From contig CM060317.1 of the NCBI GenBank assembly GCA_030674155.1, forward strand, positions 89,905,537 to 89,969,536: 64,000 bases of DNA, given 5' to 3'. Each line of letters opens with the position of its first letter. The first letter of the stretch is position 1. A model generated the notes under the pieces. The model had not been told where the DNA came from, made no database searches, and saw nothing but the letters and a program-made list of their open reading frames with translations. Below, in pieces: positions 12,401-24,400 of the stretch. Source of the DNA: Stramonita haemastoma. Taxonomy: Eukaryota > Mollusca > Gastropoda > Neogastropoda > Muricidae. The translations under genes and the position numbers were made by a program.

Positions 12401-15400
12401 AGATTTTATTGTTATCACATATCTCTGCTTGTCTCATCCCTGTTTTTTGCTCAACAGTGCCTGTATGTTATTTTCATAATGGACAATGCTGAGCTCTTTA
12501 TGTTGTGAAGGTGATGGCATATTTTTATGTTATCCCCCATAGGTTGTATATTAATTATTGTTATAATTTGTTCCTATTGTTTGTTCTTCTGTGCCACCCA
12601 CCTCATCCTTATTCCAGTAGAATATGACATTACTTTTTTTTATGTGGTGAATATTTAGATAAAACTTGTGTCAGGTATTCCGACTAGTTCTTGCATTTTT
12701 TGGGGGGGGTTTGTTGTGGTTTTGACTTGGTGTGGGGTATTTAGTTTGTTTTTTGGGGTTAGAATACTACTTACTGTCCCCTTGTTTTGCAGACAAGACG
12801 ATCAAGTTGTGGAAGGTGGCGGAGCGGGACAAGCGGCCGGAGGGGTACAACCTGAAGGACGAGGCGGGGCTCACGGTGGACCCCGGCAACATCACCTCTC
12901 TGCGGGTGCCCGTCTTCCAGCCCATGGAGCTGATGGTGGAGGCCTCCCCCAAAAGGGTCTTCGCCAACGCACACACCTACCACATCAACTCCATCTCTGT
13001 CAACAGTGACCAAGAAACCTACCTCTCTGCTGATGACCTGCGCATCAACCTGTGGAATTTAGAAATCACCGACCAGAGCTTCAGTATCCTTTCCTTTTAT
13101 TTCCTGTTGTTGGTGGGTTGTTGTTGTTTTTTTATAGTCTTTTAATAAAGTCATTGTGTTATGAAAAGGAATGAAGGGAGGGATGGACACAGAGAATTTT
13201 TCAAATAATTGTCTCTTTAACCTTTTCGCTGCTGACCTATTTTGCTCAGGCCTATGCTGAAGAAATTTTCAGAAACAGACAAAAATCACGCATATGATTT
13301 TCAATTGCTTTTAATTCAGGAAATTCCTAAGATAGCTACATAAAAGAATATACTGAATGAAAGGAAATTGAATGAAGATTGTATTTGTGACAATTTTAAA
13401 AATATATAATTAGACAGACAGACACATGCGCACGCACACGCATGCACGCACGCACACACACCACACGCACACACACACACCTGCTCTTTACGCAAACACA
13501 CAGCCAGGGAGCCAGGGCAGATGTCAGCAAGAACAATAGCTCATCAACAAAACAAACAGACACACACACTGATAACTGACAGCTAACGAGTAGCCTAGGT
13601 GACAAGTGACACACGAGGTCGCAACCACTTCAAAGTAGATCAAACACATCGGCCACTCAGTGACTGGCTCGCTTGCTCACTGACCAAGCCCTGACCAAAG
13701 GTGCAATCATACGATACACACATTTAGTTGTTCTGTTTATGAATAAACAGAGAAAAAAAGCAATATAGATATGTTATAAAAATGAATAAAGCCCTCAAAT
13801 ATACCCAACTGCATCTCGAATGATAGGATCTTCATGTTCCGATTCAGACCATGAGTAGGCAGAAGTTTCTTCCGGATCAAAACCGGAGTCGTTTGCATCA
13901 ACCTAGCAAAGTTCGATGTGAACTGGATAAAAAAAAAAACAACCTCATCTCCATTATCTTGATCTCTATAAATTTCATCAATAACTTCGGCAACTGTGTA
14001 GGTCAGTTGAGGGACAGCCATTGCTTCGAAAACCCAAAAATTGAACTTCGCAGTACCTTGTTTACCTTGCCGATTGACGTCATAAAATATGCAAATAACT
14101 TGAACAAATGGGACTCATTGGTTGAAGATACATCAAGGGAGCTAAACAAATCATAATAAGAGGATTTTCAGCAATGCTGAGCAAAACAGAGAGAGCGTTG
14201 GTTCATGACGAGCGGCGCTCGTCAACACAGCATTGCAGGTGGCGGTTTCTATGACGAGCGGCGCTCGTCAACAGCGCAGTGTAGGAGTTAAAGGTGGCAG
14301 AAGAGTTAAGTTGCAAGAAAATGTAAAGGAATTGCCTCAGAATATGTTTTGCTGTGTTTGTAGAAACTGGTGAATAATGTGTGCCGGCACATGTCTGTAT
14401 GAAGTGCTTGTATGGTGCTGAAGTTCTTGAGGGCTACTATGTATAAAGCTAGCACAAGTTGGTCAGAGGTCTCAGTACTCTGAAATACTGATCACATGAG
14501 ATAGTATCAATGAAAATGATTAAGGTAAGGAAAGTTTTGAGTTGTTGACTTTAATCTTTTGTGTTTTATTTGTAAAAAGGTAAACTATTATAAGTTGAGG
14601 TTTTATTGTAATGATTTAACAGTCTTGATACATTCCCAGCTGTTGGCTGGATTTGATTGGATAGCCCCAGTGAAAAATGCTTATGACCTTAATTGTCTTG
14701 AAGACATTGTTGACATCAAGCCAGCCAACATGGAAGAGCTGACAGAAGTGATCACTGCGGCAGAATTCCACCCCCAACAGTGCAACACCTTTGTCTACAG
14801 CAGCAGCAAGGGGACCATTCGTCTTTGTGACATGCGAGACCAAGCTTTATGCGACAAACATGCCAAAAGTAAGTCTCCCTCCCCATAGTGAAGACAGTAA
14901 CAACTGCTGGCATTGCCCCCCCCAACAAACAAAAATGATTTTACTTACTGATCTTCGCTTTGGTAGAATAGTAGGGGGATAACAGTTACCTGTTTCTTGG
15001 TGTGATTATTCTTTCAAATCAGATTGTCACACAAAATACAGGTGAATGGCATAGAAATGTTTATCATCAAAACTAATGATTTTTGTTGTTTTTGTTTTGA
15101 CTGTTATTTTTAACCTTTTTTCTATACATAGTTAAAAGACTGTTTTTATCGAGCAGCTGGTCAATTCTTGACTGTATGAAAACTGTGGCTAGTGTGGGGT
15201 TTAATTCTAAAGTAGTACTGAAAACGTTGTTATAAATGTTTAGGAAATGAACTTTGTGCCTTTGGGGAAAAAATATTGAAATTTGTTGACAGTCCACAGA
15301 GGAAACCGATGTTGATGATCAAGAACCCCCTGTTCAGACATTTGTATACCATGGTGGTGACATACTGTGGTATAAGATAACAGCAGGAACAGTAACTCTC

Positions 15401-21400: not shown

Positions 21401-24400
21401 CACGAATGATGCCATGCAAAACAACAGACTGACACGGACAGTGGCACAGGCGCTAGAAAAAAAAATCCTGCGTGGCTTCGTGCCCAAGAAGCGAGTAGCA
21501 GCAGCACGGCAGTCAAAGTCTGAGAGATTTGCGTTCAATTTAGATTTAGTTTTGCTGCCGAACAATTCCCCCCTCCCCCACCCCCTCACTGAATAGTTTC
21601 GTTTTGTTCACAGTACGTACCGGATTTTATTTTCTGGGGACCAATTTTGGGGGAGTTGGTCAAGATATCTCTGAAATTGCAACTCGCAGTACCGGTTTTA
21701 AAAAATCCTAGCGCGAACCCTGTGTATGGATACCCCCCACTTCCCCCCTTGCCCTAACCACTCAGAAAAAATTCCTACACATTTACAACAAAAAAATAAA
21801 CACATCCCTGTTCAGACATTTGTATACCATGGTGGTGACCATACTGTGTTATAAGATAACAGCAGGGACAGTAACCCTCAGGCTCCGCACTGACAGGGAT
21901 TGCTTCCCTGTACAGTTCCGATAACCTTGAGAACACTGACATGACCAGTGTCTATATGTCAGCATCTATCAAAAGTTGACAGATCCACTTAGTCCAGTCT
22001 TGTCAGATTGCACAAATCCAAATACGGGATCATTGCAAGGCTGGTGTATTGAAGGTTGCTGTCTGGCTTCCACATACTAGTCTGTATGGAACCAGAAAAG
22101 AAAAACCCTGTTCAGACATTTGTATACCATGGTGGTGACCATACTGTGGTATAAGATAACAGCAGGGACAGTAACTCTCAGGCTCCGCACTGACAGGGAT
22201 TGCTTCCCTGTATAGTTCCGATTACTTGAAGACACTGTTATTACCTGCATATCTACGATGTCATGATTTAGACATTATTATCTTCATCAGTTTATCTTTG
22301 CAATAGTTAACACAAATTAAAACATTGTTCCATTGCAAGACAAGTATGTGATAAGTTTTTATCTTGTTAAATTACAAACTTGTCTTTTCTAGCATGAGAA
22401 GAAGTCTCTACAGAGTTGATGCAATTACAACAATACTGGTCTTGGGTAAGTTAAATGCCAAAAAGATTAAAGCCCCTCAGAATATTAAAACTGATGGAAC
22501 AGAGGCTGGAATACATTAAAAATTCAAGTATTTAGGTTCTAAAAGAGAATAATGGCTCCTGTCTTCAATGCATCAAGGCTAGAATTGGTATGGCCAAGCA
22601 AAAGATGATTCAGTTGACCAACATTTGGAAAGACAGAGGTATACCTAAATGTATAAAAATTTGAATTGTCAAAGCACTAATCTGGCCTGTGTAGCTGTAC
22701 TGGGTCAAAAGTCTGGACACTATGAAAATAAAAAATTGGAAAGAGACAAAATAAACACAGCCAACATGTGGTTCTACAGACAACTTCAAAGAGCCAAATG
22801 GTCAGACAGAATATAGGAAAGCATTCTTAATGGACTCTCATTGCAAAGACAAATGTTGGTGGAAATTGATAAACTCGGACTACGTTGGTCATGCAAACAG
22901 AAACACACAGACAAATCTGATGGTAAGGTTGAGGGCAGAAGGAAAAGAGGAAGACCACCAACATCCTACATTGACAACATCACTGAGATCAGTGGTTTGG
23001 GAGGGCTACAGGAGATCATAGTCAACTAAGACACACAGAGATGGCAAACCCTGCTGGCATTGCATGGAACTCCTACTGATGACAACAGTGATTGAGACCG
23101 TTCACTTTTTTCAGTTGAGTTGAATTGAGTCTGTACTCTAACCAAGAACCCCCTGTTCAGACATTTGTATACCATGGTGGTGACATACTGTGGTATAAGA
23201 TAACAGCAGGGACAGTAACTCTCAGGCTCCGCACTGGCAGGGATTGCTTCCCTGTACAGTTCCGATAACCTTGAAGACATGCAGACGTTTTATATAAAGT
23301 CGGTATGGTGTAGCAGATTTGTGTAATCAAGAACCCCCTGTTCAGACATTTGTATACCATGGTGGTGACATACTGTGGTATAAGATAACAGCAGGGACAG
23401 TAACTCTCAGGCTCCGCACTGACAGGGATTGCTTCCCTGTACAGTTCCGATAACCTTGAAGACATAACATATCGGAATTAATTAACATCTTATGTCCAAA
23501 GTTTACTTGTGCAGTACGAATTGTTGTGCAAGTTATATATATATGGGGTTTGGGTGTTGTTGTTTTTCACATTTTACACCACTGTCAGTCAGTGGTTGCA
23601 GTAATCATTGCTTGCTGATGGCTGCTTATTGTGTTTTATTTGAATTTTAAAGATGAAACATCCAGAATTTATTGTCAAACACACCTTTTTGTTACTCTGT
23701 GTGTGTGTTGCATTGGTCCATGTGTAAAATACAGGCCTGATCAGAATTTAAGACTTCTACAAATTTATCACGGACGGCACAAAGTGTGTTAAAAATCAGA
23801 CTTAGGCAAGCTGCAGACTCTGAGGGACTTGTTTGAACTGTGTTTGATCATTCCTGTGCCTGTGTTACAATGTGTCTGATCATTCCTGTGCCTGTGTTAC
23901 AGTGTGTCTGATCATTCCTGTGTTACAATGTGTCTGATCATTCCTGTGCCTGTGTTACAGTGTGTCTGATCATTCCTGTGCCTGTGTTACAGTGTATCTG
24001 ATCATTCCTGTGTTCTTGTGTGTCTGATCATTCCTGTGTTACAGAGTGTCTGATCATTCCTGTGTTCTAGTGTGTCTGATCATTCCTGTGTTACAGTGTG
24101 TCTGATCATTCCTGTGTTAGTGTGTCTGATCATTCTTGTGCCTGTGTTACAGTGTGTCTGATCATTCCTGTGTTACAGTGTGTCTGATCATTCCTGTGTT
24201 ACAGTGTGTCTGATCATTCCTGTGTTAGTGTGTCTGATCATTCTTGTGTCTGTGTTACAGTGTGTCTGATCATTCCTGTGTTACAGTGTCTGATCTTTCC
24301 TGTGTTACAGTGTGTCTGATCATTCCTGTGTTACAGTGTGTCTGATCATTCCTGTGTTACAGTGTGTCTGATCATTCCTGTGTTACAGTGTGTCTGATCA

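Follow-up and report, generated by a model that had tools for sequence, protein, structure and literature searches.

In flies, several H/ACA RNAs reportedly lie clustered in the introns of host genes. SNORD115 and SNORD116 form arrays in which each intron of a noncoding host carries one copy. Intronic snoRNA clusters were described in rice and subsequently in Drosophila (PMC2780460), and animal introns mostly contain one snoRNA each (PMC11028025). Multi-copy H/ACA families are known in human and chicken (PMC8178906, PMC2653536); vertebrate snoRNAs are known to multiply by duplication within one gene (PMC2653536), and the human copies, which lie mostly in different hosts, are ascribed to retroposition (PMC8178906). 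Here, we analysed a 64,000-nt stretch of Stramonita haemastoma DNA (the window), in which 13 H/ACA-like units share one intron of PPP2R2, the gene for the PP2A B55 subunit. As in the fly and rice clusters, several units are intronic, but in this case there are 13 copies, 12 of them near-identical, in a single intron. The locus resembles SNORD115/116 in presenting a large family of one candidate guide RNA in one host, whereas those RNAs are box C/D (PMC11028025) and the present units are H/ACA-like and confined to one intron. Unlike the human H/ACA families, all copies found are in cis and lack marks of retroposition. With sno-lncRNAs and SLERT the array shares their prerequisite, an intron-derived RNA carrying at least two snoRNA units, and the ends of SLERT are H/ACA (PMC11028025, PMC4234469), whereas for PPP2R2 a long product would be hypothetical. 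Intronic H/ACA clusters are already known; what is unusual is how large and how uniform the array is within one intron. Literature on mollusc and gastropod snoRNAs, snoRNA clusters and copies, retroposons and sno-lncRNAs yielded no PPP2R2 H/ACA array, though one may be in print.

The repeat array and its host intron

The initial annotation described 13 same-strand units in the host orientation within one PPP2R2 intron, and our analysis confirmed the existence of the repeat, its place and its orientation (13/13 copies on the strand of the host gene). The exons on either side of the GT/AG-bordered intron match PPP2R2A up to residue 267 and from residue 268 onward, as judged against the human protein. 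The copies are 127-130 nt long when counted from CCCTG, or the corresponding segment, through ACA, within the range of about 110-150 nt for a box H/ACA snoRNA. Allowing at most 3 mismatches, a 20-mer from the 3' hairpin matched 13 times, compared with 0.01 expected from 100 shuffles. AGATAA is present in 12 of the 13 copies and ACA in all, and general similarity drops off past ACA, all as originally described; the edges of the conserved block coincide with the expected RNA ends.

Features of the array (positions in the window)
Feature	Position	Strand	Remark
Host intron of PPP2R2	14869..24644	+	9,776 nt; GT at 14869, AG at 24643-24644
Copy c01	15328..15456	+	G62A breaks end pair of outer stem
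Copy c02	15496..15622	+	76-79% identical to the others; lacks 5' domain and hinge box; folded alone, 3' hairpin is retained
Copy c03	15676..15804	+	
Copy c04	15962..16090	+	
Copy c05	17304..17433	+	c05-c06 duplicate c03-c04; spacer 94-95% identical
Copy c06	17591..17720	+	
Copy c07	19303..19432	+	hinge ACATTA
Probable decayed 14th copy	19597..19740	+	
Copy c08	20298..20427	+	same as consensus
5' pocket, left side (c08)	20305..20314	+	CAGACATTTG
5' pocket, right side (c08)	20346..20352	+	AGATAAC, contains AGATAA
Hinge (H) box (c08)	20360..20365	+	ACAGTA
3' pocket, left side (c08)	20375..20380	+	CTCCGC
3' pocket, right side (c08)	20409..20416	+	TCCGATAA
ACA box (c08)	20425..20427	+	
Copy c09	20491..20619	+	
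Copy c10	21806..21935	+	G44U breaks one pair in 5' upper stem
Copy c11	22106..22234	+	1-nt deletion in 3' lower stem; 15 nt to ACA
Copy c12	23151..23279	+	
Copy c13	23336..23464	+	

Close similarity holds for 12 copies, which are mutually 95-99% identical and are termed regular here, but not for c02 (76-79% against the others). The claim that the unit occurs nowhere else in the window stands for recognisable copies, but a further segment at 19597-19740 (+) is probably a decayed 14th copy, as suggested by a local alignment score of 61, the next best place in the window reaching 32. The covariance model R1, whose outer stem was one column off, gave this relic a weak 14.1 bits (E 0.062); R2, with the corrected structure, gave 11.3 bits (E 0.54), and an antisense match of 15.6 bits outscored it.

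A repeated exon or a minus-strand peptide was also considered. Some frames are open, but no splice sites were seen at the unit edges and a 1-nt deletion carried by 6 of the 12 regular copies shifts any frame; both readings were rejected. Rfam returned no match at the gathering score over the whole window; a relaxed cut-off of E 10 over 15300-16120 (c01-c04) let through three, none credible: SNORD95 (E 1.7), RsmY (E 5.1) and, on the minus strand, GlsR23 (E 7.1).

Predicted H/ACA-like anatomy

AGATAA had first been read as the ANANNA box between two hairpins, the 5' one of which was thought to lack a clear pocket. In the modelled fold, the outer stem CCCTGTT/AGCAGGG, listed at first as an alternative, gives the 5' hairpin a pocket, and AGATAA was dropped as the hinge box because this fold locates it inside that pocket. 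The ANANNA box fitting the fold is ACAGTA (11 copies) or ACATTA (one copy), positioned directly after the outer stem in 12 of 13 copies; c02 has none, its 5' domain and its two-hairpin fold being lost. ACA lies below the second hairpin in every copy, 3 nt from the predicted RNA end. In 11 of the 13 copies the hinge box is 14 nt from the upper stem of the 5' hairpin and the 3' hairpin leaves 15-16 nt to ACA, the exceptions being c02, without a 5' domain, and c10, whose 5' upper stem has lost one pair. Both pockets are invariant across the 12 regular copies except for one base in c11. The consensus fold has a z of -3.08, and none of 200 shuffles was equally stable. In scaRNAs, the terminal loop carries a CAB box, TGAG; neither loop region of the consensus contains this motif.

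In support of this anatomy, a descriptor that enumerates helices, requires two pockets and takes its ranges from H/ACA rules identified both domains at 73 of the 4056 ACA sites on both strands of the window, this being an unbenchmarked second version, written after a first one (constrained minimum-energy folding) had accepted 0 of 13 copies. The top 11 two-domain sites were all copies of the array (-37.3 to -43.4), and the best other site scored -29.3. None of 40 shuffled windows reached -37 (best -35.0), nor did any of 1000 shuffled units, 39 of which displayed both domains (best -29.5). With the 3' domain alone, some other ACA sites scored stronger, mainly simple repeats at 5344-5417. The modelled H/ACA-like anatomy is supported, and more strongly than the initial annotation held.

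These comparisons bear on whether the array might be a local intronic repeat devoid of RNA function, homogenised by gene conversion or by recent copying of the core only, with a merely coincidental H/ACA shape. That no shuffled unit or window was equally H/ACA-like speaks against it, as do the similarity boundaries at the expected RNA ends and the fate of unconstrained copies displayed by c02 and the relic. In its favor, a single structure that was multiplied amounts to 1 observation and not 13, and 97.2% of alignment cells at stem positions are paired but there is no covariation support, because among 13 copies that are too alike no pair was altered on both sides. The results on targets and flanks described below also agree with it. 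Overall, we regard a functionless repeat as unlikely.

The rRNA and snRNA targets envisaged for the pocket sides did not emerge: in bipartite matching, the regular pockets never outdid shuffled guides across three eukaryotic 28S sequences (proxies from 3 contigs filed under bacterial MAGs), human 18S and snRNAs, the genome's own U2 and its own error-rich rDNA unit. Eukaryotic rRNA patterns gave no match to viral contigs, and when the host gene and its concatenated exons were scanned as targets, nothing fell below 4 of 40 shuffles. A c02 pocket variant, one of five variants tried, had one L002 site with a score of 31, the 95% line being 29. The original reading as H/ACA RNA units emerges strengthened in its anatomy, whereas neither its AGATAA hinge nor guide targets are supported. 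The target results could also fit another structured intronic RNA, for instance one that regulates splicing of the host or forms the ends of an intron-derived long RNA, whose H/ACA fold serves stability and not guiding; two snoRNAs in one intron can shield the stretch between them, as in sno-lncRNAs (PMC11028025, PMC4234469). Nothing specific points to such a role, and the near-invariance of both pockets is what guiding would explain; we consider this reading very improbable.

Cores, flanks and genome-wide distribution

For pairs whose flanks are still comparable, the cores have diverged less than the flanks: c09 and c10 differ at 2/129 core and 34/139 flank positions, c09 and c11 at 4/128 and 27/141, and c08 and c12 at 2/129 and 8/55, with local flank scores of 99, 121 and 54 (best shuffles 35, 50 and 24, respectively). 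Flank similarity was recognisable in only 11 of 156 comparisons; it was not in the other 145, and duplication together with flank is therefore undemonstrated for most copies. In gapped global alignments, most flank identities fell inside the range for shuffled flanks.

A search of the 2.17-Gb genome gave at least 13 matches to the consensus and at least 12 to c02, every one in the PPP2R2 intron; these counts are lower bounds, the c02 query having missed c12 (76% identical). Among the matches listed, the search for copies elsewhere supports the expanded cluster proposed at first. No target-site duplication was found at any of the 13 copies, the longest shared words of 3-6 nt being unremarkable throughout, and no A-tail was found either.

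Repeated insertion of a transposable element, either a SINE or an H/ACA retroposon, into this intron would account for the sharp similarity edges and unlike flanks of many copies, and mammalian H/ACA copies have spread by retroposition (PMC8178906, PMC11028025). A dispersed transposon is nevertheless unlikely, since no match to either query was found outside the intron in this non-exhaustive search and neither target-site duplications nor A-tails were seen. The single orientation of all 13 copies and the relic, and the related flanks that begin right at the core edge in some pairs, further argue against insertion, and we judge it most improbable.

Proposed amplification and its implications

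Taken together, the array is likely to represent a box H/ACA guide RNA that expanded inside the intron hosting it, selection or conversion having preserved the likeness of its copies. The gene would have been multiplied by local duplication inside the PPP2R2 intron, and each copy would be transcribed within the PPP2R2 pre-mRNA and released from the spliced intron. The dyskerin complex would bind both hairpins of each copy, yielding an RNA of 130-133 nt with its 3' end 3 nt past ACA. Purifying selection on the RNA may account for the near-identity of 12 copies, as may core-restricted gene conversion or the two together, and c02 and the relic at 19597 may be copies that escaped this upkeep and then decayed. 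The RNA would guide pseudouridylation of a putative target, with the many copies serving dosage.

A more speculative extension, which we hold to be quite improbable, is that trimming of the spliced 9.8-kb intron stops at c01 and c13. The resulting multivalent RNA of about 8.1 kb, bearing up to 13 H/ACA particles, would gather dyskerin complexes and tie their dose to PP2A-B55 expression, single-site guiding being secondary.

If the amplified guide RNA is real, the locus would provide a natural case of in-cis guide-RNA amplification in which intact members coexist with drifting and decayed ones. Two questions would become testable: how the processing of an intron that contains many H/ACA units proceeds, and what need for an RNA selects for such copy numbers.

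The repeat array and its host intron

The array comprised 13 direct repeats (c01–c13, in order along the window), each spanning 127–130 nt from CCCTG, or the corresponding sequence, through ACA, and all on the plus strand, thus confirming the 13 same-strand units observed in the initial annotation. Pairwise identity was 95–99% among 12 regular copies and 76–79% between c02 and the others. When three or fewer mismatches were allowed, a 20-mer taken from the 3' hairpin had 13 matches in the window versus 0.01 expected, and covariance models, built from the copies themselves and run unfiltered on both strands of the window, retrieved all 13 at ≥100 bits, with all else at ≤16 bits. 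With the copies masked, a primary-sequence scan revealed a decayed relative scoring 61 versus 32 at the runner-up place. Judged by its sequence it is a probable further decayed copy, and only probable, since under the corrected covariance model its E value was 0.54 and an antisense match outranked it.

Exon placement by tblastn, with a human PPP2R2A sequence as query, bore out the proposed location inside one PPP2R2 intron in host orientation, as consecutive residues flank the array. A 26-nt minisatellite reaches the acceptor of this intron, resulting in a run of acceptor-like TTACAG/TTTCAG sites, each followed by TGTG, ahead of the exon at 24645; a second minisatellite lies elsewhere in the window.

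Positions of the array and of other features
Feature	Position	Strand	Details
Repeat array	15328–23464	+	n = 13
Host intron	14869–24644		Copies in sense orientation; tblastn residues 267 and 268 on its two sides
Exon	24647–24907		87 residues; match to PP2A B55 alpha, E 1.2e-52
PPP2R2A exon pieces (tblastn)	6541, 10294, 11197, 12768, 14703–14867, 24644–24904, 27021		
Probable decayed copy	19597–19740		
Best non-copy descriptor match	16396 (ACA)	+	Score −29.3
Simple repeats	5344–5417		
26-nt minisatellite	23859–24644		28.2 copies, CCTGTGTTACAGTGTGTCTGATCATT
51-nt minisatellite	35080–35982		17.7 copies, 98% matches
Tandem U2 array	G000:C13:41886628–41891292	one strand	Seven U2-like matches, ~750 nt apart
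Own rDNA unit (L034)	G000:C3597:4500–14400		
Inverted LSU match in L034	8452–9901	−	Second match

Anatomy of the unit

The lowest-energy fold of the consensus consisted of two hairpins (−46.7 kcal/mol, z −3.08, 0/200 shuffles as low), from which the free fold of c02 differed (z −1.61). In the 5' hairpin, the outer stem CCCTGTT/AGCAGGG forms a lower stem of 7 bp beneath an upper stem of 12 bp and opens a pocket whose left side is CAGACATTTG and whose right side is AGATAAC. ACAGTA follows directly, 14 nt from the upper stem, and an ANANNA box stands after this hairpin in 12/13 copies (ACAGTA in 11, ACATTA in one). The initial annotation had taken AGATAA for the hinge box and had missed a clear 5' pocket; both points required revision, since AGATAAC is a side of that pocket and ACAGTA the hinge, and the outer stem it had named as its weak point supplies the pocket together with a correctly spaced ANANNA. 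Its 3' hairpin was recovered as described, with an 11-bp upper stem 16 nt from ACA (15 in c11), a bulged 6-bp lower stem, and pocket sides CTCCGC/TCCGATAA. In c02, the 5' domain and hinge box are lost, while the 3' hairpin, folded in isolation, still adopts its structure. Free folding puts small pairs across both pockets, which were drawn open by the convention of known H/ACA RNAs. Among the regular copies there were 14 kinds of change (substitutions and deletions), nine of them in paired columns (four pair-keeping, four pair-breaking, and one deletion); the alignment of copies contained 0 pairs changed on both sides and is therefore neutral on the fold, neither for nor against.

The anatomy was further scored by a descriptor demanding two pocketed hairpins 13–16 nt from ANANNA and from ACA, the first version of which found 0/13 copies; the scores below are those of a second version, applied to this window and to shuffled sequence. 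Among 4056 ACA sites on both strands of the window, 73 carried both domains, and the top 11 were copies (−37.3 to −43.4), which are one structure and not 11 independent tests. For c10, the score of −24.7 relied on an unlikely domain on the 5' side; c02 had none. The best score in 40 block-shuffled windows was −35.0 (0/40 reached −37), and 1000 unit shuffles with ACA kept gave 39 with both domains, the best at −29.5. By the 3' domain alone, some non-copy sites, mainly simple repeats, beat copies. The best non-copy match, within the array's host intron and on its strand, is probably due to chance, since 7/40 shuffled windows scored equal or better.

Genomic distribution and divergence of the copies

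Searching the 2.17-Gb assembly with a 137-nt consensus gave 13 matches at E ≤1e-3, every one a copy in the PPP2R2 intron, and c02 as query gave 12 (c02 and 11 other copies), again all in this intron; 9/9 candidates were scored each time, and repeat counts are lower bounds. On the question of copies elsewhere, raised in the initial annotation, both searches matched the intron only, at a sensitivity ending near 78% identity, as the c02 query missed c12 (76% identical); more distant copies may exist outside the intron. None of the 13 copies had target-site duplications (longest shared words of 3–6 nt, ordinary versus random pairs), and no A-tail was found on them. With none of these marks and, at this sensitivity, no genome matches outside the intron, the array is unlikely to be a transposon family.

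Cores (CCCTG to ACA) were compared with adjacent intron DNA (flanks) in pairs picked for flank similarity, at a threshold of 1.3x the best of 30 letter shuffles; 11/156 flank comparisons passed, and all of these but c03/c09 went into the comparison with cores.

Core and flank differences between copies
Pair	Core	Flank	Local flank score/shuffles	Remark
c09/c10	2/129	34/139	99/35	
c09/c11	4/128	27/141	121/50	
c10/c11	6/129	49/141	52/37	
c08/c12	2/129	8/55	54/24	c09/c13 is the identical spacer comparison
c03/c13	2/129	15/53	39/24	
c03/c05	0/129	8/149		
c04/c06	2/129	8/149		c03–c04 spacer reused; Fisher P 0.11
c02/c12	25/125	15/53		
c02/c08	23/126	10/52		

Flank/core distance ratios were 3.6 to 22.7 for regular pairs with core differences. 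The contrast was absent for c02, which fits, as expected, a copy freed from constraint. Shuffled flanks also align well in gapped alignments (mean identity 67–70%), and gapped flank identity exceeded the best of 200 shuffles only for the c03–c06 duplication and, narrowly, for c09/c11 and c08/c12; since most gapped identities are within the range of shuffled flanks, flank relatedness rests on the local scores. The contrast is compatible with selection or with conversion limited to the core and does not separate them.

Guide targets and nature of the RNA

In a canonical H/ACA guide, both pocket sides pair around one unpaired uridine of the target. The regular pockets had no outstanding site in three eukaryotic 28S sequences (contigs L001–L003) or in the genome's own U2. 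Against human 18S, U1, U2, U4, U5, and U6, their best scores were reached by 183 and 132/200 shuffles, and against one own rDNA unit by 97 and 112/200. The rRNA and snRNA search proposed in the initial annotation thus gave no site for regular pockets that beat shuffled guides. The own rDNA unit is a weak test because it differs from conserved rRNA in many positions, which suggests assembly errors or a pseudogene; it also holds an inverted LSU match. One of five pocket variants, the c02 3' pocket, exceeded the shuffles' 95% line at one L002 site (31 vs 29), which we take as chance given the many tests made. The 28S-bearing contigs are filed under bacterial MAGs, which suggests contamination, and U2-like matches form a tandem array in the snail genome. 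For now, the putative array RNA is an orphan guide candidate.

Taken together, the interpretation as H/ACA units was partly supported and was improved by the revised anatomy. In the most likely reading, the PPP2R2 transcript carries the unit as a box H/ACA RNA that was multiplied in cis; membership in this class, based on predicted anatomy, is likely but not proven, since no target was found and expression and protein binding are only predicted. One debranched intron with 13 units would be difficult to process, since in the absence of internal cuts end-trimming exonucleases would halt at the first and last particles.

One fly paper, cited in PMC5932544, reportedly deals with intronic H/ACA clusters. 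Published accounts describe a comparable processing situation for two snoRNAs in one intron, with sno-lncRNA products (PMC11028025, PMC4234469), and state that animals mostly have one snoRNA per intron, yet that intronic clusters exist (PMC11028025). Other papers report that in flies duplicated small RNAs occupy introns of the dyskerin gene, with one in each (PMC1821038), that human H/ACA copies mostly have different hosts, attributed to retroposition (PMC8178906), and that vertebrate snoRNAs are known to multiply through within-gene duplication (PMC2653536). Given these clusters and within-gene duplications, the intronic H/ACA cluster is known as a kind; what seems unusual is the number of copies within one intron, how uniform they are, and the host.
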